DNA from: an uncultured Clostridia bacterium
GTDB taxonomy: Bacteria; Bacillota; Clostridia; Christensenellales; Borkfalkiaceae
Assembly: GCA_947572415.1 (NCBI GenBank)
Contig: CANPBT010000002.1
Coordinates: 1-64,000 of the forward strand
Direction of reading: 5' to 3'
DNA length: 64,000 bases
Shown: one piece after another, positions 6,525 to 56,952 of the stretch
How the letters are laid out: every line of letters starts with the position of its first letter
Position numbering within the stretch: the stretch's first letter is position 1
Translations under genes and position numbers: made by a program
The notes under the pieces: model-generated
What the model was told of the DNA's origin: nothing
Seen by the model: only the letters and a program-made list of their open reading frames with translations
Databases searched by the model: none

Positions 6525-6565
6525 GATATTATAGAAGTTTTGCATTTACCGTTTAACTTTATTTT

Positions 6566-7336: not shown

Positions 7337-7378
7337 AAAAAGAACTCCTTAAAATTTTATTTTTAAAGCCGTTCTTTG

Positions 7379-7405: not shown

Positions 7406-7431
7406 AAACAAAACGATTTAAACCGTTTGAA

Positions 7432-7558
7432 ATTCTTTTAACATCCGGACTGTACCGTCGGTATCGGAATTTCGCCGATTCGGGAACGGACGTATAAAAC
7501 GCGCGTTCTTCGTGGACTATAACCACCGGTGGGGAATTGCACCCCGCCCCAAAGAATA
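7432..7558 (-). ncRNA. FMN riboswitch (RFN element)
   Basis: On the minus strand the leader contains the hallmark RFN segments in order: GGGGCGGGGTGCAATTCCC, ACCGGTGGTTATAGTCCACG, a variable hairpin, CGGCGAAATTCCGATACCGA, and CAGTCCGGATG. P1 is closed by ATTCTTT (7551-7557) and AAAGAAT (7432-7438 region). It lies between a consensus promoter and a terminator upstream of ribU. FMN binding is expected to favour the terminator. Confidence 0.95.
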
Positions 7559-7576
7559 ACTTTAAATTGTAAATTA

Positions 7577-7605
7577 ATTATATAGCTTCATAATCGGGCT
7601 GTCAA
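7577..7605 (-). promoter_or_regulatory. Consensus sigma-A promoter of ribU leader
   Basis: TTGACA (7605-7600), a 17-bp spacer, and TATAAT (7582-7577) directly upstream of the FMN aptamer. Confidence 0.85.
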
Positions 7606-7634
7606 GCAAAATAAATAAAATTTTATCGAAAGAC

Positions 7635-8297: not shown

Positions 8298-8315
8298 TAT
8301 TCACCTCACGTTAAA

Positions 8316-22918: not shown

Positions 22919-23629
22919 TTACCCGTTAACGTTGCCGCGAAGATAGCTGAGCATTTCCTGCTTGAATTCCTTTATCCTCCTCCTTGAAAGGGGGATTTCT
23001 TCGCCGTTGATGATTACGCTGTTCTGCGTAACCTTTTTTATCAGCCGCACGTTTACTATACAGCCGCTGTTGCACATCAGAAAGCCGCTTTCCGCAAGCT
23101 CGCGGCGGACGTTCTCCATAGTGCCGTACTCGCGCAATTCGCCGCGGGTTGTGTTATAGACGAGGAAATTTTTGTCCTTCATGACAAAATAAATCTGCGA
23201 GGCGGGCACACGGTAATACTGCCCGTCAACCCTTACCATAACTTCCTTTTCCTTGCGCGAACGCACGTACGCAACCGCTTTTTTAAGCTTGTCCTTGAAG
23301 TTATAGCCCTTGACCGGCTTTACGACGAAATCGATTGCGTTGACCTCATACCCCTCTATCGCGTATTTCGACATTTTGGTTATGAACACGATACAGATTT
23401 TCGGGTCGAGCAGCCGAAGCTTGCGCGCCGTGGTCATTCCGTCCATAAGCGGCATTTCGATATCGAGGAAAACGATATCGTAAAGCGGCTTATAATCGGT
23501 TATGAAATCCATACCGCTGTAAAAATCGGTCACCTCGAACTCCTCGCCGTTTTCGCGGGCGTATTCTTCAATAAATTTTTTCTCGTCTACATGATACTCT
23601 TCGTCGTCGTCGACAATGGCTATGCGCAT
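22919..23629 (-). CDS. LytTR-family response regulator (module 1)
   Basis: The 236-residue protein has a receiver domain (IVDDDEEYHVDEKKF, phospho-acceptor Asp in DIVFLDIEMPLMDG, KPVKGYNFKDKL) and a C-terminal LytTR domain from about 130. The LytTR part includes VRVDGQYYRVPASQIYFVMKD and FLMCNSGCIVNVRLIKKVTQ. It resembles AgrA/VirR regulators that bind paired 9-bp direct repeats. ATG follows AAAGGGGGAT. The transcript has a leader with two consecutive palindromes. The likely targets are GH3 copy 2 and the genes after it. Confidence 0.92.
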   Translation of the reverse strand: MRIAIVDDDEEYHVDEKKFIEEYARENGEEFEVTDFYSGMDFITDYKPLYDIVFLDIEMPLMDGMTTARKLRLLDPKICIVFITKMSKYAIEGYEVNAIDFVVKPVKGYNFKDKLKKAVAYVRSRKEKEVMVRVDGQYYRVPASQIYFVMKDKNFLVYNTTRGELREYGTMENVRRELAESGFLMCNSGCIVNVRLIKKVTQNSVIINGEEIPLSRRRIKEFKQEMLSYLRGNVNG

Positions 23630-31477: not shown

Positions 31478-34400
31478 TTACCACGGCTTCGGCGTTTCGC
31501 CGTCGACGAAGAACCAGCCGTACCCCTCGTAATTTATAGTCAGATCGTCAGGCTGCGTCGCAATGTAAAGGTAACGGCTTATATTGTTGTAATACTCGCC
31601 CGTGGAGCCTTCGGGGCAACCGTGCGTAAGGTATGAAATATTTATTCCGCTGTTGTCAAATAATGCGGTTAACTCGTTAACCGACAGTTTAAAGAACACA
31701 TTTTCTATACCGTACTGCCCGTAGAACGCATTGTTGCCTATCGATTTTACGTTTTCGGTTATCATTACATTTTTTAAGGTATCCGAAAAACGCGTTTCGG
31801 TTTTATCCGACGGGTCGATACTCGTTGCGAACGAGAACGCATAATCGCCTATGCTTTCGAGCGATTTGCCGCCGTAAAAGCTTTCCGCCGCGCGGCACTC
31901 GTAAAAGCTGTACGCGCCCAGAGTTTTGACCGTATCGGGAAGCTTAACCGTTCTGAGCGTGGCGTGGTATGCGAAAGCCCATTCGGCTATTTCGGTTACC
32001 CCTTCCGCCACGTCGAGCTCGGTCAGCCCGTTGCGCGCGGCGCAGAGAATAAGTTTTTTGCCGTCCTTTGAATAGAGAATATTGTTTTCGGCCTTGAAAT
32101 ACGGATTATCCGCGCTGACCTTGATTGTCTGAAGAGATTTGAGCGCGGAGAACGCGTCCGCGGCGATATCTTTCAGCCCGCCGCCTATTTCAAGCGATTT
32201 GAGGTTACCGCTGCCGTTGAAAGCCTTGACGCCTACGGAGGTTACGCTGTCCGGGATTTTTACGCTCGTCACCACGGTATTGTTCATAAACACGCCCGAG
32301 GCTATTTGAGTTGTTCCGTCCTTTATGCTGACCTCGGCGGAAAATCCCATATACATTATAAGCGTGTTGCCGCTGTAAATCAGGTTGCCGTCGGTATTGT
32401 AAACGGCGTTGTTTTCGTCTATCGTAAAGGTTTTTATGCCCTTGCAGTTTAACAGTATGCTTGCGCCGAGAAAGTTTACGGATGCGGGGATATGCAACGA
32501 TTCGAGCTTTACGGAATTATAGAAGGCGCCTTTGCCTATATTTTCAAGCCCGTCGTTCAGCGTTATATTTACAAGATTTTTCTGATTATGCACGGAGTAC
32601 GGGAGAATTACTTTTACTTCCGCGGGCAAAACTACTTCTTGCTTCGCGTAAGCGCAGGGCACTGCGTAGAGCACCGCGCCCGCGCCGAACTCCCTGCCGC
32701 CGACCGCGCTGCCGTAAAGTATACCGTCGACAGATTTAAAATACGGGTTGAGCGGCGAAACGGTAATTTCTTCAAGGTTGTTGCAGGTGTACGTAGCGGG
32801 CGATACGCTACCGAAAGTCTTGCCGTCGTCCTCGAAAGCATATGCGCCGAAAGTGCGCACGCCGCTGCCGAGGCGGAGCTTTTTAAGCCCCGTACAGCCC
32901 TGAAAAGCATATCCGTCAATACGGGTAAGGCTGTCGGGCAGGGTTACTTCCGAAAGGGAAACGCAGCCCACGAAAGCACGCATGCCTATCGACTGTATTT
33001 TGCCCCAGTCCACTTCGCCGAGCGAAGAGCAGTAACCGAACGCCCTTTCACCCAGACGGGTAACGCCGTTGAGCTTAACGCTTTGCAGGGTGGTTATGTA
33101 ATAGAAGCACATATCGGGGATTTCCGTAAACGCCGCAGGCAGATTTACCGAAGTGAGCGCTGTGTACTCGAAGCACCTCGAGGGAAGCTCCGTAAGGGAA
33201 ACGCAAGCCGAAAAATCGACCTCTTCGAGCTTGCTGTGCGAGAACGCCGCCGTGCCGATTTCCGTCAGCCGGGCGGGCAGCTTTATCGAGGTTATGCCGC
33301 AGTTAAAGAAAGCGGAAGCGTTTATGCCTATAACCGTGTCGGGCAGGTTTATCTCAGTAAGCGCGGTGCAGCCGTGGAATGCGGAAGCGCCTATATGCGT
33401 GAGCTCCGCGGGCAGTTCGAGCTCGGCAAGCGAAGCGCAGCCGTAGAAAAGTCTGTCGGGCAGAAAGTTTTCGTAAACCGAACGCCCCTGCGAGAAGCTT
33501 ATATTGCCAAGCCCCTCTACCTTTGCGAGCGAGGTACAGTTGTAGAAAACCGACGAGCCGAGATATTTGAGCGTAGAGGGGAATTTTATGCTTTTAAGCG
33601 ACGCGCATTCTGAGAACGCGGAATTGCCTATCCTTTCCAGCTCGTTGCCCAAATCGACCGAAACGAGGTTCGCGCAGTTATAGAAAGCGTCGCCCGCTAT
33701 GCTGACCGTTCCGTCCATAAGTTTGTAATCCGTTATGGATTTATCGAGTATCATACTCAGCCCGTACTTCGCGCCGCTGCCCGAACCGGATAAGCGCGTA
33801 TACAGTGCTATGCCGTTATCGAGGTTCATATCGGTGCCGAAAAACACGCCCGTCATAATATTTTTTACGTTTTCAAGCCCCGACACTTCGATTAAATTCG
33901 AATAGGCGAAACAGAAATGCTGAAGCGTGGTCACGCTTTCGGGGATAGTCAGCGTGGATATCTGCCAGGACGCGCAAGCGTAACTTGCGATTTCCGTGAC
34001 CGAATCGCTGAGCTCCGCGCGCTCGCAGCTTGCGGGCATTAAGTAAAGCGAGGTTTTATCCTTATTGTACAGCGCGCCGTTATACGAGGAATACGCGGTA
34101 TTGCCCGTATCGACGGTAATTTCATTGAGCCCTACAGTGTTTATATGCATGGTAAACGGGGTTTCGAGCCGCGCCGTGGAGGGCAGATGCAGCTTTTCGA
34201 AATTTATCGCCGTTGGGTCGGGCGACTTCGAAAACATTGACTTTAAATCGACAAATGTAACGCCCTCGGGTATTTTAAGCGTCTGAACTTTTTCGCCGGT
34301 ATAGCCCGAAAACACGCGCTTGCCGCCGGAATAGCTTATATTCATTTCGGAAAGCTGGTTTTGGGTAATAAAGTGCGCGTGCAGGTCGGTTACGCGCACG

Positions 34401-35020
34401 TTGCCGGACGCTGGCGGCGAAAGCGGTCTGAGTCCCGTTACGGGCTGTTCGTCCGCAAAATGCCAGCCGTCGAAGCGTATCGCCCTGTCGTAATCCTTTT
34501 CGATAGCCGCCCCGTCTACGGAGTAGTTGTTCGCCTGAGTGTCTATCCATACCGAAAGCTTATTTTCGTTGTCGAGCGCGGCGGAAGCGGGCGAGCTTTT
34601 CCACAAATCCGTTTTGTCCTCGTCGAGGTAAAAATTGACGGTATAATCGTTTACGTCGTAAAATATAAAATTTTCCGCGTGCTTGTAATATACCTTTATC
34701 TGTTTGTTGGTACCGGTTGTTTCGAGGTCGAATCCGTCGTAGCGCACTATTCCGTCGCGGAGGTGCTCCTCGGTGACGTACACCTCCGAGCCGTCCTCGT
34801 TAACGAATTTGCACTTGCACCTTTCGATTACCTGCGCGGCATCCGCCTCCATTCCCCGAGCGAAATCGAGGCGGTTGTTCTCGATAAACAGTACGGAGTT
34901 TTCGTTTATGCCGGGTATTTCCTTTTCGGGTTTATACTCGGTGCACGCCGTCACCGCAAACGCGCAAGCCGACGCGGCGCATACGGTTATAAGCGAAGTT
35001 AGCAATATTTTTCTTTTCAT
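31478..35020 (-). CDS. Large BspA-type leucine-rich-repeat lipoprotein
   Basis: The ATG at 35020 (AAAAGGTG upstream) is preferred to the GTG at 35029. The protein of about 1180 residues has a lipoprotein signal ending in VTAC, a 200-residue N-terminal region, then some 25 leucine-rich repeats of the LRR_5/BspA class. The repeat pattern is (I)G..AF..C..L..(I/V).LP..(L/V)..I, from about 230 to 1130. The C-terminus (YGWFFVDGETPKPW) is unusual. BspA-like proteins mediate adhesion or protein binding at the surface. The gene overlaps the end of the hybrid kinase and precedes MoxR-DUF58-TgpA, which could assemble or present it (inference). Confidence 0.88.
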   Translation of the reverse strand: MKRKILLTSLITVCAASACAFAVTACTEYKPEKEIPGINENSVLFIENNRLDFARGMEADAAQVIERCKCKFVNEDGSEVYVTEEHLRDGIVRYDGFDLETTGTNKQIKVYYKHAENFIFYDVNDYTVNFYLDEDKTDLWKSSPASAALDNENKLSVWIDTQANNYSVDGAAIEKDYDRAIRFDGWHFADEQPVTGLRPLSPPASGNVRVTDLHAHFITQNQLSEMNISYSGGKRVFSGYTGEKVQTLKIPEGVTFVDLKSMFSKSPDPTAINFEKLHLPSTARLETPFTMHINTVGLNEITVDTGNTAYSSYNGALYNKDKTSLYLMPASCERAELSDSVTEIASYACASWQISTLTIPESVTTLQHFCFAYSNLIEVSGLENVKNIMTGVFFGTDMNLDNGIALYTRLSGSGSGAKYGLSMILDKSITDYKLMDGTVSIAGDAFYNCANLVSVDLGNELERIGNSAFSECASLKSIKFPSTLKYLGSSVFYNCTSLAKVEGLGNISFSQGRSVYENFLPDRLFYGCASLAELELPAELTHIGASAFHGCTALTEINLPDTVIGINASAFFNCGITSIKLPARLTEIGTAAFSHSKLEEVDFSACVSLTELPSRCFEYTALTSVNLPAAFTEIPDMCFYYITTLQSVKLNGVTRLGERAFGYCSSLGEVDWGKIQSIGMRAFVGCVSLSEVTLPDSLTRIDGYAFQGCTGLKKLRLGSGVRTFGAYAFEDDGKTFGSVSPATYTCNNLEEITVSPLNPYFKSVDGILYGSAVGGREFGAGAVLYAVPCAYAKQEVVLPAEVKVILPYSVHNQKNLVNITLNDGLENIGKGAFYNSVKLESLHIPASVNFLGASILLNCKGIKTFTIDENNAVYNTDGNLIYSGNTLIMYMGFSAEVSIKDGTTQIASGVFMNNTVVTSVKIPDSVTSVGVKAFNGSGNLKSLEIGGGLKDIAADAFSALKSLQTIKVSADNPYFKAENNILYSKDGKKLILCAARNGLTELDVAEGVTEIAEWAFAYHATLRTVKLPDTVKTLGAYSFYECRAAESFYGGKSLESIGDYAFSFATSIDPSDKTETRFSDTLKNVMITENVKSIGNNAFYGQYGIENVFFKLSVNELTALFDNSGINISYLTHGCPEGSTGEYYNNISRYLYIATQPDDLTINYEGYGWFFVDGETPKPW

Positions 35021-35025
35021 AAAAT

Positions 35026-36717
35026 TCACCTTTTCTTTGCGGCGATTATTTCGCCGGCGCGTTTTTTCAGTTCGTCGAAATCAATGGGCTTCGACACGTG
35101 CCCGTCCATGCCCGCCGCTTCGGAAAGCTTTACGTCCTCCACGAAAGCGTCGGCGGAAAGCGCGATTATCGGCACGCTCCCTGCGTCGCCTTTGCCGCAC
35201 TTTCTTATCTCGCGCGCCGCGTCGCGGCCGTTGAGCCGCGGCATCTGAATGTCCATAAGTATAAGGTCGAACGAGTATTCGGGTTTTTCCGTAAATATAT
35301 CCACAGCCCGACGGCCGTCCGCGGCGTGGGTCATCACCGCGCCCTCGCTTTCGAGAATGTCAATCGCTATTTCCGCGTTGACCTCGTTATCCTCGGCAAG
35401 GAGTATCCTGCAACCCTCGAAGGTGAAGTCGGTTTCCTCCGCCTCCTCTTCCAAAGAAACCGGTTCGGACATATCCTGATTTACGTCGGCTACGGGCAAG
35501 GACAAAAATACCGAAAAATCCGTACCCTTGCCGAGAGTGCTGTCAATGACTATATTGCCGCCCATAAGCCGCACTATATTGTCGCAAATGGCAAGCCCGA
35601 GGCCCGTTCCGCCGTAGTTATGCGCCGTCGAAGCTTCCTCCTGCTCGAACGGACGCATTATCTTGCGTATGTTTTCGGGCGCGATGCCCTTGCCCGTGTC
35701 GCGGACGCGAATCATCAGCTGAACGCACCCGCCTATGTTGTCTAGCTGCTTGAAAGTAACCGATATCGTTCCGCCCGCCGGCGTGAATTTGTTTGCGTTC
35801 GACACGAGGTTGGTAACCACCTGCGTAAGCCTGAGCTCGTCGCCGACAAGGTAGCGCGCGGTAAAATCCACCGTTTCCACATTAAAGTTTATGCCCTTGC
35901 CCGTTATCGTGCCGTTGAACATATTTTTGATTTTTTCGGCGAAACCGAATATATCCATCTGGGTGTTGAAAAGCTGCATTTTTCCGCTTTCGATTTTGGA
36001 TATGTCGAGGATATCGTTTATCATTCCTAAAAGAAACACCGACAAATCGCCCGCGCGGTCGAGGTAGCCCAGCACCTTTTCCTTATCGTCGATATTCATT
36101 TTCGCAAGCGCCATCATACCCATAACTCCGTTCATCGGAGTACGGATTTCATGGCTCATACTCGAAAGAAACGACGACTTCGCCGCCGCCTGCACAAGCG
36201 CGGAGTCGAGCTCCTTTTTCATATCGCCGAGGGTCTTTTTCTGTTCGGTAATATCGTATATCGTAAACGCTATGTAATCTTTGCCGCCGTAATCAGCCGT
36301 ATTTGCGGTAAGCTTTGCGTATTTCCCGTCGCCGTAACAAAACTCGAAGTTAAACGCGTTTTCGCCGTTCCACCCGGAATATGCCTTGACGAACTCGCGC
36401 ACGTAGCTTCTGTCCACGTTTTCTTTGAGCGACTGCACGTCGCGCATGGCGTGCTCCGCCGTAACCTTGAAAAAGCGGTTTACTCCCGAGCTTACGTAAA
36501 CGGGCTTACCGCCGTTTTTATCGATAAGTATAAACGCGATTTCACCCTCGCCGAACACGCCCGTAAAAGCCGCCTTGCCCTCGGCTATAATCCTGCTTGC
36601 CTCCGCCTGTTTTGTCAGCTCGCGCTTTTTTAAAAGCATATGCAAAAAACACAGCGCCGCAACCGCCGCCGCAAGAGCAGTAAGTATTATGCTGTACGCA
36701 ACTACGAAAGCTACCAT
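35026..36717 (-). CDS. Hybrid sensor histidine kinase with C-terminal receiver
   Basis: The 563-residue protein has a single N-terminal helix (about 4-26) and a PAS-like domain (about 50-160, with the FTIYDIT(E)QKK end typical of PAS). The H box is FLSSMSHEIRTPMNGVMGMM, the N box LVSNANKFTPAGG, G1 VRDTGKGI and G2 GGTGLGLAI. The receiver domain (about 440-555) has CRILLAEDNEVNAEIA and DLILMDIQMPRLNGRD. There is no separate Hpt or output regulator in the window, so phosphoryl flow must end elsewhere. It is the first gene of the operon with the LRR lipoprotein and MoxR set. ATG after GGAGAAAG. Confidence 0.9.
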   Translation of the reverse strand: MVAFVVAYSIILTALAAAVAALCFLHMLLKKRELTKQAEASRIIAEGKAAFTGVFGEGEIAFILIDKNGGKPVYVSSGVNRFFKVTAEHAMRDVQSLKENVDRSYVREFVKAYSGWNGENAFNFEFCYGDGKYAKLTANTADYGGKDYIAFTIYDITEQKKTLGDMKKELDSALVQAAAKSSFLSSMSHEIRTPMNGVMGMMALAKMNIDDKEKVLGYLDRAGDLSVFLLGMINDILDISKIESGKMQLFNTQMDIFGFAEKIKNMFNGTITGKGINFNVETVDFTARYLVGDELRLTQVVTNLVSNANKFTPAGGTISVTFKQLDNIGGCVQLMIRVRDTGKGIAPENIRKIMRPFEQEEASTAHNYGGTGLGLAICDNIVRLMGGNIVIDSTLGKGTDFSVFLSLPVADVNQDMSEPVSLEEEAEETDFTFEGCRILLAEDNEVNAEIAIDILESEGAVMTHAADGRRAVDIFTEKPEYSFDLILMDIQMPRLNGRDAAREIRKCGKGDAGSVPIIALSADAFVEDVKLSEAAGMDGHVSKPIDFDELKKRAGEIIAAKKR

Positions 36718-36925: not shown

Positions 36926-37723
36926 TTAATTTTCCGGTACGAAAGCGAACCACTCGTACTGCGCGGTTGCGGGCAGAGCGGATTCGTCGAAAACTCCGCT
37001 CCACTCGTCCGCGCCGCGGACGTTCCATACGTTCATCATAAGCTGCATGGGGTTTGTGGGAAGATTTTCCGTCGCGCGGTACACAGCCGTTCCGTCGACG
37101 TACCAGACAATGCAGTCCTTTTTCCACTCGAAAGCGTATTCGTGGAAGCTTTCGGCGGCGTCGTAGCCGAGGTCGAACAAAAACGTATGCCCTTTGTCGG
37201 AGCCTTTCGTGAAATAATTGAACTGTATTTTAGTAGTGTCTTTGCCGAGAAACTCGATATCTATTTCGTCCCATACGGGTTTGTTCGTATAGGTGAAATA
37301 CGAGGAAATTATGCCCGAGCCCTTAGCGGCTTTCATTCGCACCGAGTAAAACCCGTAAGAGTACAGCTTGTCGGTACGGTATTCCGCGCCGCCGTAGCTA
37401 TTGCCCTCCTTTACAACCGACATGCTCATTACTCCGTCGGATACGGTCGCGCAGCTTTTGCGCCAGGTGCAGTTGAAATTGCCGCCGTTGGAGTAACCGT
37501 TTGCCCAGTAAAAATCGGACGACGCGCCGTCCTTAAACCGCACGGTTTTTTCGTTTTCCGAAGTCAGTCGGTCGGGGATACCCGCCGCGGACTCGTGCGG
37601 GGTGAACGTCGGCGTCGGGGGCGCGGAGTCGGGCTTTTGAAGCTCGGACGGCGCGCAGCCGTTTAGCGCAAACATCGTTGCAAACGATAACAGTATCGGT
37701 AAAGTTCGTTTGATTTTAAACAT
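36926..37723 (-). CDS. GH16 lipoprotein, licheninase-like beta-glucanase
   Basis: The 265-residue protein has a lipoprotein signal (MFALNGC) and a GH16 beta-jelly-roll. The catalytic motif WDEIDIEFLG gives E153 as nucleophile, D155 and E157 as acid/base. YGFYSVRMKA, MMNVWN and DGTAVYR are typical of bacterial beta-1,3-1,4-glucanases (lichenases). The predicted substrate is mixed-linkage beta-glucan. The oligosaccharides released would suit the neighbouring GH3 beta-glucosidases. It is the last gene of module 2, after the Big_2 lipoprotein. Start ATG after AAAGGAAAC. A hairpin lies between it and the preceding gene, so its dose may be lower. Confidence 0.9.
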   Translation of the reverse strand: MFKIKRTLPILLSFATMFALNGCAPSELQKPDSAPPTPTFTPHESAAGIPDRLTSENEKTVRFKDGASSDFYWANGYSNGGNFNCTWRKSCATVSDGVMSMSVVKEGNSYGGAEYRTDKLYSYGFYSVRMKAAKGSGIISSYFTYTNKPVWDEIDIEFLGKDTTKIQFNYFTKGSDKGHTFLFDLGYDAAESFHEYAFEWKKDCIVWYVDGTAVYRATENLPTNPMQLMMNVWNVRGADEWSGVFDESALPATAQYEWFAFVPEN

Positions 37724-37791: not shown

Positions 37792-39522
37792 TTATTCCGC
37801 GGTTACGTTTTTGAACTTGAATCCGCCGATCGTTACGTTGCCGCTGTGCTTGTTGTGCGCATCGTTTTCGTAAGCGGTATCGAAGCACATCTGCATTTCA
37901 ACGGGCGTACCGTGATCGCCGTCGGGCTGATAGGTGATATAAATTGTAGCCGTCGCGCCCGCTTCGATGCTTATCGTCGTGCCGCCCCACTGCGTATCGG
38001 TCTTGGTGCTTGCGCCTTCGGCAACCGATTTAACGGCGCACTCGAATATATCCGTACCGTTGGGGTCTTTGGTGGCGACCGTTCCGTTAAGGTCGAGGCG
38101 AAGCTTCATAGTCTCCGTGCCGTCGTTTTTGATTGTAAACGCGAACGTATTGCAGTTTGCCACGTTTGCCCCTTCGGGAATGGTGAATATAATCCTTTCG
38201 TAGGTGTCGCTTTCCACGTTTGTATATTTAACCGTGTAAGAATTACCTTCGTCGGTGGTCTTGATATCGTATTTATCGGTATCGATACCATCGGTTACGA
38301 GCGTAAGCGAGGATTCGGTTGCGCCGGACATATCGGGGATTTTGGTCGAGAAGTCGGGTTTTTCGGTCTTTTCGTCCGCTTCGCCCAAATCCGTCCAGTG
38401 AAGCTTGTCGATTGAAACGTTTACCGTTTCGCCGGGTGCGCCGAGCAAGCCGAGCAGGAAGAACGCAGCCGACTCAACGTTGTCGTAATTGCCTGCGGGA
38501 TAGTTAACGCCCCAGTCGCCGTGTCTGAATTCGACGGAAAGATTATTTTCGCCCGCCACAATCTCGGTAGCTTCGGGTTTCGGGTCTTTACCGATAGTAT
38601 TCATTTCGATTTTGCCTGCAACGCTGGAAGTAAGCGTGAAATCGAGCCTGTAATTGTGGTTGACTTCGAGCTTGCCGCCGTCCTGCCCTTTCGAGCTGCG
38701 GTAGGTTATCTGGATTATAGACGAATTGTTTGCACCGCCGTCGCGTTCGTCTACCTTGAAGGTAAGGTTTATTTTGCCCGCTTCGGAGCCTTCGGTAGAA
38801 TCCTGATAATACGCTTCTATCATTTCCGACTTACCGCCGACGTAGTTTGCGGGATCGTTCCAGTAGCCCCATTTGTTGGTGGGCACTTTGTTCTGTTCGT
38901 AGTACTCGATTGCTTCATAACCTGCGGGTTTTGTCCACGTAACCGTAACTTCGCAGGTTGCCTTCTGGTTAGCGCCGTGGCGGGTGGCGGTGATAGTCGC
39001 GCTGCCCTCTCTGAGCGCCGTTACTTTACCGTTTTCGTCCACCGTTGCGATAAGCTCGTCGGAAGAAGCCCAGTCAACCGTTTCGGTTGCGACAGCCGAG
39101 CCGTCCTTTTTGACCGTTGCGGTCAGGGTTTCTTCACTGCCTCTTTCAAGCGAAAGCGTGGGTTTGCTTATTTCCACGGTAATATTTTCAACCGTAACGG
39201 TGCAGGTTGCCGTCTTGTCGCCCGCTTTCGCGGTTATCGTCGCCGTACCCGCCGCTTTTGCCGCGACTACGCCTCTCGTAACCGTTGCAACGTTTTCGGC
39301 GGAGGAAGTCCATTCCTCGACCTCGCCTTCAGTACCGTCGGAAAGGGTTACCGTAGCTTTAAGCCTCTGCGTGTCGCCGGGGCCGAGCGTAACCGTCGTC
39401 ACGTCGAGCTTGACGCTGTCAACTTTCGGGCCTTTGTTCGTGTCGCACGCGGCAAACGCAAACATAAACACTAACGAAAGTGCGCACGCCAACATAGAAA
39501 AGAATACTTTTCTGAGTTTCAT
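37792..39522 (-). CDS. Big_2-domain lipoprotein with C-terminal glycan-binding-like domains
   Basis: The ATG at 39522 (AGGAGAAAAAG upstream) is preferred to the one at 39540. The protein of about 576 residues has a lipoprotein signal ending FAAC. Two bacterial Ig-like group 2 domains follow (about 20-100 and 100-180, each with the ATV/IATVDENGKVTALREGSATIT pattern). Two beta-rich regions of about 170-190 residues come next; the first ends in VNVSIDKLHWTDLG, like CBM4/9-type modules. No catalytic residues are recognised. It takes the same place in module 2 (between GH3 and a second glycosidase) as the InlB-repeat lipoprotein in module 1, so a surface binding role is inferred. Confidence 0.75.
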   Translation of the reverse strand: MKLRKVFFSMLACALSLVFMFAFAACDTNKGPKVDSVKLDVTTVTLGPGDTQRLKATVTLSDGTEGEVEEWTSSAENVATVTRGVVAAKAAGTATITAKAGDKTATCTVTVENITVEISKPTLSLERGSEETLTATVKKDGSAVATETVDWASSDELIATVDENGKVTALREGSATITATRHGANQKATCEVTVTWTKPAGYEAIEYYEQNKVPTNKWGYWNDPANYVGGKSEMIEAYYQDSTEGSEAGKINLTFKVDERDGGANNSSIIQITYRSSKGQDGGKLEVNHNYRLDFTLTSSVAGKIEMNTIGKDPKPEATEIVAGENNLSVEFRHGDWGVNYPAGNYDNVESAAFFLLGLLGAPGETVNVSIDKLHWTDLGEADEKTEKPDFSTKIPDMSGATESSLTLVTDGIDTDKYDIKTTDEGNSYTVKYTNVESDTYERIIFTIPEGANVANCNTFAFTIKNDGTETMKLRLDLNGTVATKDPNGTDIFECAVKSVAEGASTKTDTQWGGTTISIEAGATATIYITYQPDGDHGTPVEMQMCFDTAYENDAHNKHSGNVTIGGFKFKNVTAE

Positions 39523-39563
39523 AAATCTTTTTCTCCTCATTTAAATTTTATTTTTTACAAAAG

Positions 39564-42500
39564 TCAGCCGTTGTCCGTATCGGCGTCGCCGTTTACGGAA
39601 GCTTCGGCGGGCTGTTTTTTATTCCTCAAAATATTCCTGACGAGGAAGTACGCCATTACGCCTGCGCCAGCCGCAAGCGCGACTTCGACGAGGACGACGT
39701 ACGCTATCCAAGTGAGGTCGTATTCCGCCCCGCCCATATCGGAAGGTACCGCGTTGGGGTCGTAGGATTTAGCGGTGTTTTCGGTGTCGACGAGCGTCCA
39801 AAGCACGTCGTGCGCAACCTTGCGCCCGAGCGCCGCGGCGGTAGCGTCGTTATTGAGCGAACTGAACAGACCGCCTATACCGTTCGAAAGCCAGATATCG
39901 TTGCCCGCCCAGATGCCGAGATAAGGAGGCATATAGTCGTCGCTTGCGTTTACCCAGTCGGTAACAACCGTTCCGTTGAAGCCCCATTCGTTTCTGACGA
40001 TTTCTGTCATCAGACCGTAGTTCGCGCCCGACCATACTCTGCCGAGACGGTTCATACTCGTCATAAGCGCGTTGCCGCCGCCTTCTTTAATCATCAATTC
40101 GAAGGGTCTGAGATAAATTTCGCGCAAAGTCTGCTCGGTAAGGAAGGTGAACAGACCTTCACGGTTCTTTTCGCTGTCGTTGACCGCGAAATGCTTGACG
40201 TAAGAATATACGCCCATTTGCTTCGCGCCGAGGACGGTGCCCGCGCAAATCATGCCCGAAAGCAAGCTGTCCTCCGAATAATATTCGCCGTTTCTGCCGC
40301 CGAACGGGTTGCGGTGAATATTCGCGCCCGGCGCGTACCAGCCTTTAAGCCCGGGCATCGAGCTTGCCTCTCTGCCTACGCTCAGACCGAATGCGTGCGC
40401 AAGCTCCACATTCCACGTCTGCGCAAGCATAGTCGCGGTAGGATAAGCAACGAACTTGCAGGGCGTTGAACTGGTTACGCGGGTATTGAAGCCCGCAGGG
40501 CCGTCCAGATCGACGTATTCGCTCTTTTCGATGCTGGGCAGCGCAGCCGTTTTGAAGTAGCCGTCGCTGATTAAGTTGACAAGTTCTTTTGCGGTTATCT
40601 GCGCAATTAACTTATCCCAGATTTCGTCGTCGTAGGTCTTTGTGCCTCTGACGTCGTTGACGGTCAAACCCGAATTAACCACTTCGGGCATGGAGGTAAT
40701 GTTGCCGTAGCCCGCATATTCGAGCTGCTCTGCCGTGGGCTTTTTCGCCTTTGAAATCTGTTCGGCTTCAGCCGTCCTCGTCCTTGCCGTCGTCTGCTTC
40801 TGAGGATAGGAATTTTTGAAGTTTTCCCTCGTCAGATATTTTACGGGCGTGGATTCGTGGCTGCCGTCGAGGTCTGATTTGTCAATCGTCTTATCGTTGC
40901 CCTTGCCGTCCTTGTTTGTGAAGCGGTTTTCAACCGTCTCGCCCGTCTTTTCGTCCGTATCGTATTTGTATCCCGCCGCGGGCACGGTAAACTCTATAAC
41001 GGCTTCCGTATCGGAGTTCCTGTGCATGGTCGCAGCTTCGTGCGAGTTTTTCATAAGGCGGAGCTGATACTTGCCTCCGTCCAGCTCGTACCCGGCATGC
41101 CCGTTGTTGTTTTTATCGTAACAGTCGTACGAAGCCATGCTCTGAACGGTAAGCTCGAGCTTGACGGTGTCCGCTTCGCCGGGGGCGATTACGCCCGTCT
41201 TTGCGAACGCGCCGAGGTTAACGTACGCCTTTTCTATGCCGCCCGAAATATACTCGGGTGTGTAATACAGCTCGACCACGTCCATTGAGGGATAGTCGCC
41301 GGTATTGTGAACCACTACGGTAACTTCGATTTTACCGTCTTTGGGCAGCTCGCCGTTCTTCTGTTCCTTGTCGTTGATTTTCACGTCGGTCACTTCCCAC
41401 TCGAACTGCGAATAGGAAAGTCCGTAGCCGAAAGGATACTGCACCACCTTTTCGTAGCCGCCGTTATCGGCCCAGAAGCCCTCTTTATCGGCGGTTTCGT
41501 ACCACTTGTAGCCGACGTATATGCCCTCGCTGTAATCGATATACGCCCTGTAACGGTCGCTGTCGCTTTTTGCGTTGGAATAAGTGTTTATAGCGCCGTC
41601 GTTGCTCTCCGCGCCGTAGTTTGCCATCGCGGGATTAGTGCCGAGGATATCGTACGCATAGGTATCGGCAGTCCTGCCCGAGGGAGAAACCTTGACCGTT
41701 TCCATAAGCGTGTTGCCCGCCGCGTCGGTTTTATATATTACGGTGCCGTCCTCGTTGTACTTGACGTTGCCGTTTTCGTCGCGTTCAGGCACGGGCGACT
41801 GCTTCTCGCCGCGGAGGACGTTGATTAATCCGTTAACGCCGGTAAGCCCGGTTATTCCCACCAAAAGCGCGCCGTCTATCTCTTTATCGTCGATAAAGCC
41901 CGTTTCCATGGTGTTTGCCGTGTTGAGTATAACGATAACCTTATCGCACGTTTCTTTGGCAACGGCAATCATTTCTTCCTCTTCGGTCGCAAGCTCGAGA
42001 TAGTGTCTGTCGTTGACGGTAATGTTCGTCGTCGACTTGTTTTTCTGCTCCTGCTTTACCTGGTTGAGTTTTAAATCCTTGCTTTCGCTGCCCGTTCTGC
42101 CGATTACTACGAGCGCTACGTCCGAATGGGCGATTATGCTGTTTTTAATCGATTCGGTATAAAAACCCGTACCGGGCTCGTGTATCGTGAAAATCTTTTC
42201 GGAGCCGAAGCTAGTACCGCCCCTGTACTCCAGATCGTCGACGGGGTTGTACACCGTCGTATGGTCGCAGTAGAACTTTTCATACATATCCGCGAGGTCT
42301 TTATTATATTCGATACCCGCCTTGTCAAGCGCGGGGAAGAGTTTAACTTTTTCAAGCTCGGTATTCGAATAACCCGAACCGAAAGCCGAAGTCATCCAGT
42401 CGAATGCCGCCCAACCGAACACGTTGACTTTCGCTATTTCTTCTTTGGAAAGAGGCAAAGCGGGTATCCCCTTGCCGTCCTTTTCGTTTTTAAGAAGGAC

Positions 42501-42713
42501 AACGCCTTCTTCGACTATGTCTTCGCACAAAGCGGTACCGCCTTCGAGAACGGCTGCGTCGGTAGTCTGCGCGCGTCCGTACAACCAAAGACTGATATCC
42601 TGCCAGAACATGGTCGCGGCGATAACGAGCGCAAGCATAATTGCAACAACCGCCGTTATGCTCGGCACGAATATCGCAAGCGATTTTTTAACAGACATTG
42701 CTTTTTTTGCCAT
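39564..42713 (-). CDS. Membrane-anchored permuted GH3 (copy 3)
   Basis: The ATG at 42713 with AAAGGAGA is the likely start (an in-frame ATG at 42797 lies between promoter and RBS). The protein of about 1049 residues has an N-terminal helix (SLAIFVPSITAVVAIMLALVIAATMFW), the GH3 sandwich domain with EGVVLLKNE and GRTGSESKDLK, PFGYGLSYSQFEW, and an Fn3-like domain. The barrel shows LDGPAGFN, NIHRNPFGGRNGEYYSEDS, KHFAVNDSEKNR and GTVVTDWVN (D919, candidate nucleophile). A C-terminal helix (WIAYVVLVEVALAAGAGVMAYFLV) precedes a charged tail. It follows the LytTR regulators of module 2 and has promoter-proximal LytTR-type repeats. Confidence 0.9.
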   Translation of the reverse strand: MAKKAMSVKKSLAIFVPSITAVVAIMLALVIAATMFWQDISLWLYGRAQTTDAAVLEGGTALCEDIVEEGVVLLKNEKDGKGIPALPLSKEEIAKVNVFGWAAFDWMTSAFGSGYSNTELEKVKLFPALDKAGIEYNKDLADMYEKFYCDHTTVYNPVDDLEYRGGTSFGSEKIFTIHEPGTGFYTESIKNSIIAHSDVALVVIGRTGSESKDLKLNQVKQEQKNKSTTNITVNDRHYLELATEEEEMIAVAKETCDKVIVILNTANTMETGFIDDKEIDGALLVGITGLTGVNGLINVLRGEKQSPVPERDENGNVKYNEDGTVIYKTDAAGNTLMETVKVSPSGRTADTYAYDILGTNPAMANYGAESNDGAINTYSNAKSDSDRYRAYIDYSEGIYVGYKWYETADKEGFWADNGGYEKVVQYPFGYGLSYSQFEWEVTDVKINDKEQKNGELPKDGKIEVTVVVHNTGDYPSMDVVELYYTPEYISGGIEKAYVNLGAFAKTGVIAPGEADTVKLELTVQSMASYDCYDKNNNGHAGYELDGGKYQLRLMKNSHEAATMHRNSDTEAVIEFTVPAAGYKYDTDEKTGETVENRFTNKDGKGNDKTIDKSDLDGSHESTPVKYLTRENFKNSYPQKQTTARTRTAEAEQISKAKKPTAEQLEYAGYGNITSMPEVVNSGLTVNDVRGTKTYDDEIWDKLIAQITAKELVNLISDGYFKTAALPSIEKSEYVDLDGPAGFNTRVTSSTPCKFVAYPTATMLAQTWNVELAHAFGLSVGREASSMPGLKGWYAPGANIHRNPFGGRNGEYYSEDSLLSGMICAGTVLGAKQMGVYSYVKHFAVNDSEKNREGLFTFLTEQTLREIYLRPFELMIKEGGGNALMTSMNRLGRVWSGANYGLMTEIVRNEWGFNGTVVTDWVNASDDYMPPYLGIWAGNDIWLSNGIGGLFSSLNNDATAAALGRKVAHDVLWTLVDTENTAKSYDPNAVPSDMGGAEYDLTWIAYVVLVEVALAAGAGVMAYFLVRNILRNKKQPAEASVNGDADTDNG

Positions 42714-42795
42714 TTCTTTTTCTCCTTTAATTATTATTTCATACTTCGGCGCCGCGGCTCGGCAAAAAACCGCATTCGGCGCGTTGCTATGTAGC

Positions 42796-42863
42796 ATTAT
42801 AAAAAAAGGAAAATTATTTTACAAGAAGCGTTCCTTAAACTGTAATATTATTTCATAAACTGT
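42796..42863 (-). promoter_or_regulatory. Promoter of GH3 copy 3 with LytTR-type direct repeats
   Basis: On the minus strand ACAGTTTAT (42863-42855) and ACAGTTTAA (42843-42835) are separated by 11 bp. Both match the AgrA/LytTR half-site consensus. They lie just upstream of TTGTAA (42824-42819), a 17-bp spacer, and TATAAT (42801-42796). The distal repeat is next to the kinase stop codon. Confidence 0.65.
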
Positions 42864-42869
42864 CAGTTA

Positions 42870-44243
42870 TTACAATTTTTCGCGTCTGCTGAAAATAATG
42901 TTTAAGTGGAATATGTTGTCGGAAACGAACGTCGTGAGCTCGCCGCCGTATTTTTTTACTATCATCCTAAGGCTGCGCATACCGAATCCGTGGCTGTTTT
43001 TATCTTTTTTTGTTGTAATAGGCAGCCCGTCCTCAAACTCGCGCACGCCGTTAAAATAGTTTTCCTCCTGAACGAGGATAAACCCGCCTTTCGCCTTTAC
43101 CGATAAATTTACTATACGCCGCGCCTTGTCCTCTATTTCCTTGACCGCCTCCAACGCGTTGTCTATCAGGTTGCCGAAAAGGCAGTACAAATCACCCGCT
43201 TCCATAAACTCGAGTTTTTCACCGTCGATCATACACGAAAAATTAATTTCGTTCTGCTCGCAATAAAATCCTTTTTCGGTGATAAGCACGTTTAAAAGCT
43301 GATTGCCCGTATCCTTTTTGAGGTCGTAAAACGAAATACTGTCGCGCAGGGCCTTAACCGCATCCGCGCCCATATCCCCCTGCGCCATAAGCGCGTCGAG
43401 CTTGTATTTTATATCATGACACTTTATATTTATAAGCTCGATACTGTCTTTGGAAATCCGGTACTGCCTTTCGCCCTGGCGTATCGCGTATTTGAGATAC
43501 TCGACCTCTTTTAAAAGCCGACTTTCTACTATGGATTTGGAAGCGAGAAGTATTACTATCACGCAACAAACCGCCGAAAACGCGTTGCCCGTCTGTCGCA
43601 GCACGTAGTAAACGTCGTTGTCAAACCTGTTCTCGCGTTCGACGCACAGCTTCGCAAAGTACAAATCTTCGACCGAGCACAGAAAAATCGTTATGCCGAG
43701 GATAAAAAACGTAAGCAAAATCATCTTGTAATTCAGCTCTTTGTCCTGAAGCTTCGAGGTAATCCTGCGTATAAACAGAAACCAGAACGCGGCTACGCAT
43801 ACGGCGAAAATCGTATAATACATAAGGCGGTAATACAAATCGAAATTCGCTCCCCAGCCGTCGTACAGCCTGAGCTTTTCGCCGAACGTCCAGACAATCA
43901 GGTATACCTTATACGCAAGGTTCTGCGCCGCGTAAGCCATTCCGCAACAGAAAAGCACCGTAAAATAGCTCTCTTCGAAGCATAACCAGGCAAACACTGT
44001 AAACACCGCAAACAGAAAGGTATATACGAGTATCCTTCCCCACAGCGTGCCGCCGAACGCAGTATAGAACCAGGCTACGGGCAGACCTATCGCAAAGACG
44101 GCTACAAACCCGAGGACGGCGCGTAAAACGAATTTGTTTCTGCGGTTCAGCTTATGCAGAAAAAGTACGGCAAAAACCGAGTATTCGAAGAGAAATTCGA
44201 CGATTATTATACCGTACATATGGAGTATTTGCGTAAACGTCAT
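42870..44243 (-). CDS. GHKL sensor histidine kinase, AgrC-like (module 2)
   Basis: The 457-residue protein has six or seven hydrophobic segments in the first 215 residues, then a coiled linker (LKYAIRQGERQYRISKDS). The H box is INIKCHDIKYKLDAL, and a GHKL domain follows (LFGNLIDNALEAVKEIED N box, SHGFGMRSLRMIVKKYGGEL G2). Its ATG overlaps the stop codon of the response regulator (TAATG). It is homologous in layout to the kinase of module 1 but clearly diverged. It also lacks an adjacent agrB/agrD. Confidence 0.88.
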   Translation of the reverse strand: MTFTQILHMYGIIIVEFLFEYSVFAVLFLHKLNRRNKFVLRAVLGFVAVFAIGLPVAWFYTAFGGTLWGRILVYTFLFAVFTVFAWLCFEESYFTVLFCCGMAYAAQNLAYKVYLIVWTFGEKLRLYDGWGANFDLYYRLMYYTIFAVCVAAFWFLFIRRITSKLQDKELNYKMILLTFFILGITIFLCSVEDLYFAKLCVERENRFDNDVYYVLRQTGNAFSAVCCVIVILLASKSIVESRLLKEVEYLKYAIRQGERQYRISKDSIELINIKCHDIKYKLDALMAQGDMGADAVKALRDSISFYDLKKDTGNQLLNVLITEKGFYCEQNEINFSCMIDGEKLEFMEAGDLYCLFGNLIDNALEAVKEIEDKARRIVNLSVKAKGGFILVQEENYFNGVREFEDGLPITTKKDKNSHGFGMRSLRMIVKKYGGELTTFVSDNIFHLNIIFSRREKL

Positions 44244-44956
44244 TATTTATCCTCCAAACCGGCATATCGGTTGGCAAGCTCGGACATAAAAGCTTTTCTG
44301 CGCGGTCTGCTTATTGCAAGCGTCTCCGCGCCGAGCCGGACTGTAGAGCCGTCGACCGACACTATAAACCGGGGATTGACGAGATAACACTGGTTGCACC
44401 TTAAAAACCCGAATTGTCTGAGCTCCTCCTCGACCTGGGATAAAACGCCCGTCCTTTCTACTACGCCGTCGACGGTATGATAATACAGGCGGTGCCGCAC
44501 CGTTTCAACGTAGATAAGCTTATCGGTTGAAATACGGCAAAGCCCTTTCGACGTGTTGAGCGTGAAATCTTTCTTTTCGTTTATAACGTAAATATCGAGC
44601 GCTTTTCTGAATTTCAACGCAAAGTCATAATACTGAACGGGTTTGATTATGTAAGCAACCGCGTCGACCTCGTACCCTTTTTGCGCGTACTGTATAAGGT
44701 TGGTTATAAATATAATCGACACGGTTTTATCCACTTCCCTCAGCTCGACAGCCGCGCTCATACCGTCGCGGTTGGGCATCTGAATATCCATAAACACGAC
44801 CGCGTACTTCGCCTTGTAATCGGTAAGAAACCCGACGGCGTCGCGAAATCGGTCGATTTGAAAATCCTGACCCGTTTCCTTTGAAAACCTTTCTATATAT
44901 CCGTGCAAAAGCTCCGCCGCGCCGTCTTCGTCTTCAACGATTGCAATATTCCTCAT
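44243..44956 (-). CDS. LytTR-family response regulator (module 2)
   Basis: The 237-residue protein has a receiver domain (IVEDEDGAAELLHGYIERF, phospho-acceptor Asp in AVVFMDIQMPNRDG, IKPVQYYDFALKFRKAL) and a LytTR domain with ICRISTDKLIYVETVRHRLYYHT and FLRCNQCYLVNPRFIVSVDG. ATG after AAAGGAGG. The best target site in the window is the ACAGTTTA repeat pair in front of GH3 copy 3. Confidence 0.92.
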   Translation of the reverse strand: MRNIAIVEDEDGAAELLHGYIERFSKETGQDFQIDRFRDAVGFLTDYKAKYAVVFMDIQMPNRDGMSAAVELREVDKTVSIIFITNLIQYAQKGYEVDAVAYIIKPVQYYDFALKFRKALDIYVINEKKDFTLNTSKGLCRISTDKLIYVETVRHRLYYHTVDGVVERTGVLSQVEEELRQFGFLRCNQCYLVNPRFIVSVDGSTVRLGAETLAISRPRRKAFMSELANRYAGLEDK

Positions 44957-53703: not shown

Positions 53704-56700
53704 TTAATTTTCCTCCTTTTCGGGCATTACAACCGACGCTATCCACGCAAGACCCGCAAGGCCCGTCAGCACCCCGAATACCGCTTCGAGAGCAATGAAT
53801 ATATTCTCCCAAGGCGCCTTATCAATTGTTCCTGCGAACACTTTAAGCGTGAGAGTTTCAGCCTGCTCGCCTTCTTCAGCTAATCTGAAATTGTATGCGG
53901 CGCTGTGCGCTATCGTGTAAAGCTGATATTTGTTGGTCTGACGCGCCATTTCGCAAAGCTTGTTGTCGCCTTTGAGCGTAGCCATAGTTACGTAGCTCCA
54001 CGTTTTATCGGTGGCGGTATCCGAGAAGTCGTTTCCGTCCTTGCCTATGAACGAGTCGTTAGCGCCGAAGCCCGCGTACTGGTTTACGGTTGCCATTATG
54101 ATAGAGAACGGCTCGTGATAGTTTTTCTGACCCATATCGGTCGTTATGATACCGGTAAATCCCCACTCCTCGCGCATAATGTTTACGAGAAGTCCTACGC
54201 GGTTGGTTACGTTGACGGCGCCGATACGGCTGAACGACATCATTACGCCGTTGCCGTTGCCTTCGCTTGCGCTGAGCGCGCCCTGATAGCAACGAATATC
54301 CGTTTCTCGCATTTTCTGCTCCGTCATATATTCCGCGATACCCTGACGGTGAAGCTCCTGGTCGTTGAAGCCCATATGTTTAGGCCCTACGATAGCGCCC
54401 ATCGACATAGCGGCTTTAATCTGTTCGGTGCCTATGCGGTTGGTAAGCATAGGATCTTCGGACATATATTCAGAGTTACGTCCGTTGTATGCGTGCCTGT
54501 GCTGATTTAAGCCCGCGCCCCAAACGGTTATAGGGCCGGCATTCTGCTCTTCCATAAGCCACAATCCGCATTCGCCTTCGAGTAAGCCCCATTCGCGCGC
54601 AAGCTCGGGGTTAAAGCTCGAACCTAAAAGAGTGTTTGAAGCAATATTAAGCTGCATTACCTTTCTTGCAGTGCCTTCGCCGGGAACAATAGTAAGGGTC
54701 TGCGAGTATCCCGCAACGCTTTCCGACTGCTTACTCGTAGGGTTGGCTACGCTTAGCGAATCGGTTGTATTACCGCCGTGAAGAATTGCACCTACCGCCT
54801 CGTTGATATTGAGCGCCGAAGCAAATTCATTCCATATATCCGAATTAACGTCGTTGAACGCTTCGGGGTGACGAAGCTTGAAGCTTGTAATCCAGTCCCA
54901 AACTGTTTTGTAGTCTTTCCCCTCGCCTACGTCTTCGGGAATAATACCTTCGACATTCTTGACGGGGTCGTCCGTACTGGGTATATACTGAAGGTTACGC
55001 AGCTGGTTTATCCACTCGTCCTTTTTATTGCTGTCCGCAATCCTGAAAGGAGCTTCGGGAGCAATACCGCTGCCGTTGGTGTAGTTGGTGTAGTTTTTGG
55101 GGAATGTACCCGCCCAGTCGCTTCTGGTCAAATATTTGACTTTATCGGCCAGATAATAATTTATATCGGCGTCGTCGGCCTGATTTGTTACCTTGTAACC
55201 GTTGGAGGTTGCAAACGTGGTTTTATCGAGTTTTTTAAGTTCATTCCATACCGTCGCTTTGCCGCTGCCGCTCGTCTTGCCGTCGGTGGATTTATTCTGC
55301 GCGGTGAGGAAGTTATTCACAGCCTCGTGCGCGCCTGCCGCCGCCGTGAAATAATAGTCGCCCTCGTCGAGGATATACGTTTTCGCTCCGTTGGAATCCC
55401 AGCTTGCAAGATACTTTGTGGGGACTTCGATTTCTACGTCGACCGATTTGCCCGCTTTTACTTCAACCTTCTTGGAGTTAAGGAAGTCGACAGCGGCTTT
55501 TTCAACTTTGTTCGTAATATCGTATTCGGTGTAAGGTCTTTGCACGTAAAGCTGTGCAAGGAATTTTCCGTCCTCGGTGCCCGTGTTGGATACTTTGACG
55601 GTCGCCGTAACGTTGCCGTTTTCGGAAAGGTCGACTTTTACGTTTGTTACTTCCTGTGTGTAAGGTATATAGGAAAGCCCGTGTCCGAACGTGTAGAGAA
55701 CTTCGTCGGAGTAATTCCACGCCGAACCGGTCCTAGAGCCCGCCTTATCGTTTGCTTTGAAATCGGCGTTCGCAATACCGTCGTAGTAACGTGTTTCATA
55801 GTACTTGTAACCTACGTAAATGCCTTCCGCCTGAACGATGTACCAGGGCGCATTGAGGTTATCTGCCGTAAGAGGGGTTTTTTCCGTCGAATCCTTGGGT
55901 TGATTAAACCTCTTGAAAGGATCTTCGTCTATGGACGAGAACCCGATGGAGTCTTTATCGGCATACTGCTGCTCGCCCATATTGATTGTAGCGGGGTTGA
56001 AGCTGTTGTCGTATACGTAAGTATCCGACATTGCACCGGTCGCGTTCGCTTTTCCCGCAAGCACGTTTGCGATACCGCCGTACTGATAATCGTTGGGGAT
56101 ACCACAGAAGCCGATTGCGTCAACCTCGTGCGTGCCGCCCTTAGAAATGGGACCGAGCTCCATCGCGTTTGCCGAAGCTACCAAAACCACCACTTTTGCG
56201 CAGTGTTCTTTTGCGTATTTAATCATTGCAAGTTCATCCGCCGAGAGAGCAAGGGGGTCTTCGGCGCCTACCGCCGCATCGGCCTTGTAGTTTGCGCCCT
56301 CGCCGCCGCCGCGACCGACTACGACGATACCCGTAGAAGTCGATTCTATATTCCACGTGTTCTTCGCTTCGAACTTTTCGGGTATTTCATATTCCGCATA
56401 ACCGGGGGCTTTTTTCATTGCGCCGGAAAAATCCTCCGCCTTAATCGTATCGTTAACCGTAATGCCGGCCATATCGCTAAACGCCGAATAGAGAGTAATC
56501 TGTACCGCTTTATCATAGCGTGAGCCGACCACTGTTGCGGGACGACCTGACGTTACCTCGCCGGGCTTATTGCCCGCAACGACGCCGGTGTGCCCCGTGG
56601 GACAATTGTATGCGTTCCAGCCGAACAGCGCGACTTTTGTGCCCGAAGCAAGGGGAAGTGCCTTGTTGTCGTTCTTCATAAGCGCAAAGCCTTCCTCGCC

Positions 56701-56952
56701 CTGCTTTATGCCGTGAGCTACGAGCGCGTCGGCAAAATCCGTAAGAGAGCTATGCTGTTTTTTGAAAGCACGCGTACCCTGCACCTCTCTTTCTTCCCAG
56801 ATATCACGGGTTTCCACACCGAAATAGCCGTCCACCCAGCCGACAGCCAACGGGGATTTGGCTATGCCGTATCCTACCGTGGATACGGTCAGGAGCGCTG
56901 CCGGCGTCGCTGCTACGCCGCGAAGCAACGGTGAAAACTTTTTGAGTTTCAT
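53704..56952 (-). CDS. Membrane-anchored permuted GH3 (copy 4), divergent acid/base region
   Basis: The 1082-residue protein has an N-terminal helix (about 12-30) and the sandwich domain with EGFALMKNDNKALPL. GRGGGEGANYKADAAVG replaces the GGE.FDLPR of the other copies. TFGHGLSYIPYTQEV, an Fn3-like domain and an insert follow. The barrel has NQHRHAYNGRNSEYMSEDP, KHMGFNDQELHRQG and GIITTDMGQ (D939, candidate nucleophile). A C-terminal helix (FIALEAVFGVLTGLAGLAWIASVV) precedes PEKEEN. It differs enough from copies 1, 2, 3 and 5 to suggest another substrate. Transcribed from its own promoter, divergent from the DeoR gene, with the small membrane protein behind it. ATG after TTGGAGGAAA. Confidence 0.88.
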   Translation of the reverse strand: MKLKKFSPLLRGVAATPAALLTVSTVGYGIAKSPLAVGWVDGYFGVETRDIWEEREVQGTRAFKKQHSSLTDFADALVAHGIKQGEEGFALMKNDNKALPLASGTKVALFGWNAYNCPTGHTGVVAGNKPGEVTSGRPATVVGSRYDKAVQITLYSAFSDMAGITVNDTIKAEDFSGAMKKAPGYAEYEIPEKFEAKNTWNIESTSTGIVVVGRGGGEGANYKADAAVGAEDPLALSADELAMIKYAKEHCAKVVVLVASANAMELGPISKGGTHEVDAIGFCGIPNDYQYGGIANVLAGKANATGAMSDTYVYDNSFNPATINMGEQQYADKDSIGFSSIDEDPFKRFNQPKDSTEKTPLTADNLNAPWYIVQAEGIYVGYKYYETRYYDGIANADFKANDKAGSRTGSAWNYSDEVLYTFGHGLSYIPYTQEVTNVKVDLSENGNVTATVKVSNTGTEDGKFLAQLYVQRPYTEYDITNKVEKAAVDFLNSKKVEVKAGKSVDVEIEVPTKYLASWDSNGAKTYILDEGDYYFTAAAGAHEAVNNFLTAQNKSTDGKTSGSGKATVWNELKKLDKTTFATSNGYKVTNQADDADINYYLADKVKYLTRSDWAGTFPKNYTNYTNGSGIAPEAPFRIADSNKKDEWINQLRNLQYIPSTDDPVKNVEGIIPEDVGEGKDYKTVWDWITSFKLRHPEAFNDVNSDIWNEFASALNINEAVGAILHGGNTTDSLSVANPTSKQSESVAGYSQTLTIVPGEGTARKVMQLNIASNTLLGSSFNPELAREWGLLEGECGLWLMEEQNAGPITVWGAGLNQHRHAYNGRNSEYMSEDPMLTNRIGTEQIKAAMSMGAIVGPKHMGFNDQELHRQGIAEYMTEQKMRETDIRCYQGALSASEGNGNGVMMSFSRIGAVNVTNRVGLLVNIMREEWGFTGIITTDMGQKNYHEPFSIIMATVNQYAGFGANDSFIGKDGNDFSDTATDKTWSYVTMATLKGDNKLCEMARQTNKYQLYTIAHSAAYNFRLAEEGEQAETLTLKVFAGTIDKAPWENIFIALEAVFGVLTGLAGLAWIASVVMPEKEEN

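Follow-up and report, generated by a model that had tools for sequence, protein, structure and literature searches.

The locus and its repeat pair

The locus raises the question of whether two short direct repeats in front of a glycosidase operon are the operator through which an adjacent two-component system controls it. The window, the whole stretch of 64,000 nucleotides analysed here, comes from an uncultured Clostridia bacterium with a genome of 1.57 Mb on 64 contigs (G000) and eight LytTR matches over the cut-off. On the minus strand, the gene order runs from rhamnose genes and a sugar transporter through a LytTR response regulator (44243..44956; receiver and LytTR by domain matches) and a GHKL histidine kinase (42870..44243; six hydrophobic N-terminal segments in a simple hydropathy scan) to the site, followed by a GH3 enzyme (39564..42713), a Big_2-domain protein with a hydrophobic N-terminus (37792..39540), and a small BglS-like GH16 (36926..37723). 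Both the Big_2 gene, judged by its spacing, and the GH16 gene are predicted to belong to the GH3 operon. The GH3 open reading frame is listed from 42797, and its start is most likely 42713, with the ribosome-binding sequence AAAGGAG (42722..42728) upstream. In its product the Pfam C-terminal domain comes first, and hydrophobic segments lie close to either end. The GH16 scores 254.8 bits against the beta-glucanase BglS model, under the cut-off of 300, and is closest to small GH16 genes behind the site in relatives.

Gram-positive polysaccharide utilization loci consist of co-located glycosidases, transporter, and regulator. The window locus has this composition, with genes for GH3, GH16, alpha-L-rhamnosidase, an MFS sugar transporter, RhaA, and a sugar kinase around the regulator. 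The order of a Pfam C-terminal domain before the N-terminal (catalytic) domain is found in three GH3 enzymes (39564-42713, 53704-56952, and 16622-21352), and many GH3 paralogues lie near LytTR systems in the parts of the genome examined. A large BspA-type leucine-rich-repeat protein (31478-35029) adjoins a hybrid kinase.

The site lies on the minus strand in the 156-bp intergenic stretch between the kinase and GH3 genes. Re-reading of the sequence confirmed the pair, its spacing, and its coordinates upstream of TTGTAA-17-TATAAT, all as given in an earlier note on this DNA. The distal half-site (ACAGTTTAT, 42863-42855), placed by sequence and by its equivalent position in alignment A3, and the proximal half-site (ACAGTTTAA, 42843-42835) share 8 of 9 bases and have a step of 20 bp start to start (9-11-9). 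The proximal repeat ends 10 bp before the -35 element TTGTAA (42824-42819), identified by promoter scan and alignment, and a 17-bp spacer leads to the -10 element TATAAT (42801-42796); this promoter scores 10/12 in the scan.

The window has one exact pair of ACAGTT words at a distance of 18-22 bp; across 200 block-wise dinucleotide shuffles the mean was 0.005, and a single shuffle reached one. When no word is named, the best 10-mer direct repeat with a 20-22 bp step in the 156-bp intergenic stretch agrees at 9/10 positions, a quality equalled in 50 of 2000 shuffles, so the repeat alone is only modestly unusual. Allowing up to two mismatches gave three matches in the window where 3.1 were expected, and one mismatch gave six in the genome and six in the control. 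Repeat-pair searches of the whole genome found no further site. Within the window, no repeat pair of at least 8/10 was found before the regulator gene, and thus no autoregulation is seen. The evidential weight lies in conservation, not in the single window copy, and it is conservation across relatives that led us to reject a chance repeat.

Conservation and co-occurrence with the regulator

We compared 61 genomes, the window genome and 60 relatives. A regulator orthologue (59-66% identity) is present in 12 of the relatives, all of the same genus; elsewhere only more distant matches occur. The element lies just behind the kinase gene in 10 of these 12, and also in a public record (L075) whose regulator is 65% identical; of the other two relatives, G009 has a contig that ends inside the element and G018 is without it at that position. 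A tolerant pattern with up to three mismatches, built from these very sites and wide enough for those of the window and G018, matched 13 times, in every orthologue carrier but G009 (12 of 13), and once in the control. It gave none in the 48 genomes without an orthologue (24 members of the genus and 24 others of the order). Since the pattern was drawn from these sites, the new information is the absence elsewhere. An earlier, narrower pattern made from the after-kinase sites had given ten matches, one per genome and all after the kinase, with none in the control. The question of whether orthologous promoters lack the pair was thus put to the relatives and answered in favour of the original proposal, the pair being kept among carriers of the regulator orthologue.

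In alignments A1 and A3, the element is conserved over about 70 columns with a mean column identity of 78-79%. The repeats are gapless at a 20 bp step (9-11-9) in all 14 aligned sites, those of G018 having been located by a consensus of fixed step. When the best promoter is taken at each site, the distance from the second repeat to the -35 is 10 bp in 13 sites and 9 bp in G018a, and the -35/-10 spacer is 17 bp in 12 of 14. Invariant letters include the CA of both repeats, the TT of the second, and the TTG of the -35, which reads TTGTAA in the window and TTGACA or TTGACT in the other 13 sites. The first repeat of the relatives, mostly ACAGAATAA, agrees with the second at only 3 to 7 of 9 positions (3 to 8 over all aligned sites). 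It overlaps the last codons of the kinase in six of the 14 sites. Because the other eight lie outside the kinase gene, coding constraint from the kinase end does not explain the first repeat and was rejected.

Genes behind the site

Eleven of the 13 tolerant-scan matches precede GH16 or GH3 genes, and two are on contigs that end too early. The order behind the site is GH16-GH16-GH3 in seven loci (G033, G029, G015, G002, G003, G028, and contig C2 of G018) and GH16-GH3 in G027, while two GH16 genes are seen before the stretch ends in G016 and L075. The contig of G031 includes no more than the beginning of a protein that, judged by eye, resembles the larger GH16, and that of G036 ends 281 bp beyond the site, before any target gene could be assigned. 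The shared part is the small GH16, which is 46-63% identical to that of the window in eight loci (L075 included) and 53-55% identical in G018; the GH3 enzymes of the relatives are only 30-33% identical to the window GH3. Thus the site has persisted although different members of one enzyme set have come to lie directly behind it.

Two genomes show the site, or a diverged form of it, away from the kinase gene. In G018, the regulator and kinase on contig C45 are followed by an opposite-strand gene, with no element after the kinase; its elements are on C2, preceding GH16-GH16-GH3, and on C90, preceding another GH16. No regulator or kinase match was found in the 14 kb of C2 that were read or in the 5.7 kb of C90, separate contigs that, in a draft of about 130, may still be linked to the regulator over a long range. 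A Clostridia record from isolate Lapin-020 (L074) has the closest regulator (70%), and no such element follows its kinase. Upstream of this regulator is the gene orthologous (64% identity) to the window GH3, together with its promoter, which has the same -35 and -10, an 18 bp spacer, and a diverged repeat pair 21 bp apart, too degenerate to be recovered by the geometry scan described below. The position of the site is thus tied to the enzymes and not to where the kinase gene ends, and in following the enzymes in both G018 and L074 it behaves as the binding site of a diffusible regulator should.

Taken from the sequence, these patterns make it highly probable that the neighbouring two-component system has its operator in the repeat pair, where the adjacent regulator very probably docks and would activate the beta-glucanase-type operon GH3-Big_2-GH16. 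The direct link from adjacent regulator to glycosidase operon that the earlier note had proposed is thus supported by conservation and co-occurrence, with binding and activation as its predicted parts, and in the relatives GH16/GH3 operon is the better name. One relative keeps the site although its enzyme operon is apart from the regulator, so that a genuine, dedicated genetic switch, of a type already known, is most likely. In the mechanism we propose, the kinase (42870-44243) would detect an extracellular cue, plausibly a glucan fragment, and phosphorylate the response regulator (44243-44956). Two LytTR domains would then occupy the repeats, which are spaced by about two turns of the helix, and the bound regulator would help RNA polymerase at the promoter 10 bp downstream, presumably activating rather than repressing, so that GH3-Big_2-GH16 would be switched on in response to the presumed inducing signal.

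A hairpin over the promoter and alternative readings

In most after-kinase sites of the relatives, the -35 lies in the loop of a stem of the GAACGCCCGTTGACAACGGGCGTTC type, followed by a T-rich stretch; the equivalent position in the window, from folding and covariation, is 42809..42833 on the minus strand. This terminator-like hairpin folds well in five of six sites (z -2.1 to -5.2), the window being the exception (z +1.27), and also in L074 (z -2.98), while it is weak in L075 (z -0.96) and no better than shuffles in G018a (z +1.96) and G018b (z +0.74). In alignment A1, 90% of cells pair, a share that none of 500 shuffles reached, and the covariation score was above that of every shuffle; three pairs changed on both sides, which 51 of 500 shuffles reached, and the number of pair types was reached by 444. 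In our reading, the hairpin terminates the upstream transcript and occupies the same DNA as the promoter that follows. In the window it is degraded and no longer folds, and GH3 expression there may be raised by transcripts reading through from the kinase gene.

The near-consensus promoters (-35/-10 scores of 10 to 12 of 12 across the sites) could allow expression without an activator, and in many relatives a palindrome is centred on TTGAC, which together would suit a regulator that binds and represses, or a second operator for a sugar repressor around the -35. We consider this unlikely, as the repeats are placed ahead of the -35, which is the position of the family's activators according to the available parts of PMC2766830 and PMC6193735. 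Moreover, the palindrome is unsupported in three sites, and its arms vary by species and include G-U pairs and some compensating changes, a pattern that fits RNA better than a fixed protein site.

The hairpin could also mean that the block is mainly an intrinsic terminator of the kinase gene next to a constitutive promoter, with the repeats as incidental A/T-rich sequence. The folding, the T-rich tract, and the pairing in A1 agree with this, though 51 of 500 shuffles matched the double-sided changes and the pair types were no more than in shuffles. Against it, the repeats and the -35 persist in the window, G018a, and G018b, where the hairpin fails to beat shuffles; the G018 sites do not follow a kinase at all; and letters of the repeats are among the invariant columns. 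This terminator-only account is very improbable, being largely contradicted by the three sites where the hairpin is unsupported, and was rejected.

That another LytTR regulator of the same genome reads the site, for example that of module 1 (22919-23629; 62% identical to a paralogue in its own genome), would fit the many paralogues and the fact that half-sites of different LytTR regulators can look alike, but is more doubtful still, as the site tracks the orthologue of the adjacent (module 2) regulator over the 61 genomes, the module 1 regulator has no full-length relative above 41% in other genomes among the matches listed, and two other modules (L060 and L058) show repeat pairs with other letters.

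Other LytTR-GH3 modules

Orthologue-carrying genomes hold 4 to 15 regulator-like matches each. A search for private operators in paralogue modules yielded little: a geometry scan of 22 promoter regions found a match in six and none in 16, the diverged L074 site being among the latter. With simple 30-base block shuffles as the control, matches as good were reached by none of 300 shuffles for the window, L058 (from G022), and L076, by two for L060, by 14 for L061, and by 74 for L080. In a LytTR-GH3 module of the window genome (L060 10735-10763, on G000 C6), ACAAGTT repeats 21 bp apart lie 10-11 bp before TTTACT-17-TAGAAT; a search for ACAAGTT pairs with up to two mismatches across the 61 genomes returned background level only. 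In L058 (4967-5036), GCAAGGTTA occurs twice without change, 21 bp apart, behind a regulator of 47% identity and its kinase and ahead of TTGAAA-17-TAAAAT and a gene pair with a GH3.

A GH3 operon and the LytTR regulator gene following it are each preceded by the same TTCAGGA pair (G000 C6:50989-51016 and C6:60187-60214), which hints at one operator for the two. Pairs of this word gave three exact matches in their own genome, these two among them, and two in the control at up to one mismatch, and are not clearly above that control. L060 also contains a GH3 gene split into several frames (6330-8367), and L061 a receiver-domain fragment like those of these regulators (12088-12380), both apparently decaying module copies.

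We tentatively suggest that some species of this genus possess lineage-specific AgrCA-like systems freed from peptide quorum sensing, each a glycan sensor with a private LytTR operator in front of a dedicated membrane-anchored GH3 or GH16 operon, together forming insulated parallel switches. Equally tentative is the companion idea that such private operators have diverged in their letters (ACAGTT here, ACAAGTT and CAAGGTTA in two other modules) while keeping much the same geometry. An AgrA-like regulator, in a genome without detectable AgrB, is tied here to glucan-degrading enzymes through a specific candidate operator. The motif lets target genes be found in a poorly known, apparently clostridial genus, and it raises the question of what an AgrC-like GHKL kinase senses if no peptide system is present.

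Comparison with known LytTR systems

LytTR-activated promoters of peptide-sensing systems include those of the AgrA and ComE type. The window site shares with them a pair of 9-10 bp direct repeats that closely precede the -35 and are set about two turns of the helix from each other, as well as the adjoining receiver-LytTR regulator and membrane GHKL kinase. It differs in its 20 bp step instead of 21-22, in its glycosidase operon target, in that AgrB was not found, and in having one or two sites per genome with the pattern used, with none before the window regulator gene. The same likenesses and differences hold for SilA, whose sites consist of 10-bp repeats with an 11-bp spacer (a 21 bp step) and lost activity upon a 1-bp change, as described in the available part of PMC2766830. 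The accessible text of PMC6193735 gives 9-bp repeats mostly 12, sometimes 11 or 13 bp apart, with a strong preference for a position 10 bp ahead of the -35; the window step is 1-2 bp under the common 21-22 and inside this published range, in which 11-bp spacers are a minority.

The earlier note's description of an AgrA-type arrangement is supported, with a geometry that fits published LytTR promoters; by the NCBI model the regulator itself is no AgrA orthologue. It scores 23.7 bits against the AgrA equivalog model (cut-off 400), and the kinase 22.7 bits against that for AgrC (cut-off 500). AgrB (PF04647) was not found in G000, and none of the 13 orthologue carriers has a match over the cut-off, G015 having one below it. 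An Agr quorum-sensing locus was therefore rejected, AgrB not being found and both models lying far below cut-off. A solved-structure search listed 52 sequences, mostly receiver domains and none named AgrA. LytTR regulatory systems (LRS) such as HdrRM and BrsRM, in the portion of PMC6193735 available, share the 9 bp repeats, 11-13 bp apart and typically 10 bp before the -35. LRS regulators have a membrane inhibitor partner and autoregulation, whereas the window has a receiver-LytTR regulator with a GHKL kinase and no repeat pair before the regulator, and this assignment was likewise rejected.

The neighbourhood itself has precedents. The part of PMC2914790 (2010) available to us describes three LytTR regulators of Butyrivibrio proteoclasticus, each near a secreted GH3 with a C-terminal helix; the window likewise has a LytTR response regulator beside a GH3 with a C-terminal transmembrane helix, so the LytTR-GH3 neighbourhood was already known. 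Similarly, RR[LytTR] is listed in one Roseburia locus in the available text of PMC5320581, which like the window places a LytTR response regulator inside a polysaccharide locus. In the window, by contrast, the operon includes a GH16, and an operator is proposed and followed across species, whereas the accessible parts of those two papers give none. Titles and abstract starts in the literature searched, with subscription papers mostly outside its scope, indicated no operator linking a LytTR regulator to glycosidases. With its repeat size and spacing, a distance of about 10 bp to the -35, and a co-inherited regulator (matches in 12 of 13 carriers vs none of 48 other genomes), the window site is another case of the known LytTR promoter class, with a glycosidase target that is seldom linked to this class in the literature searched.
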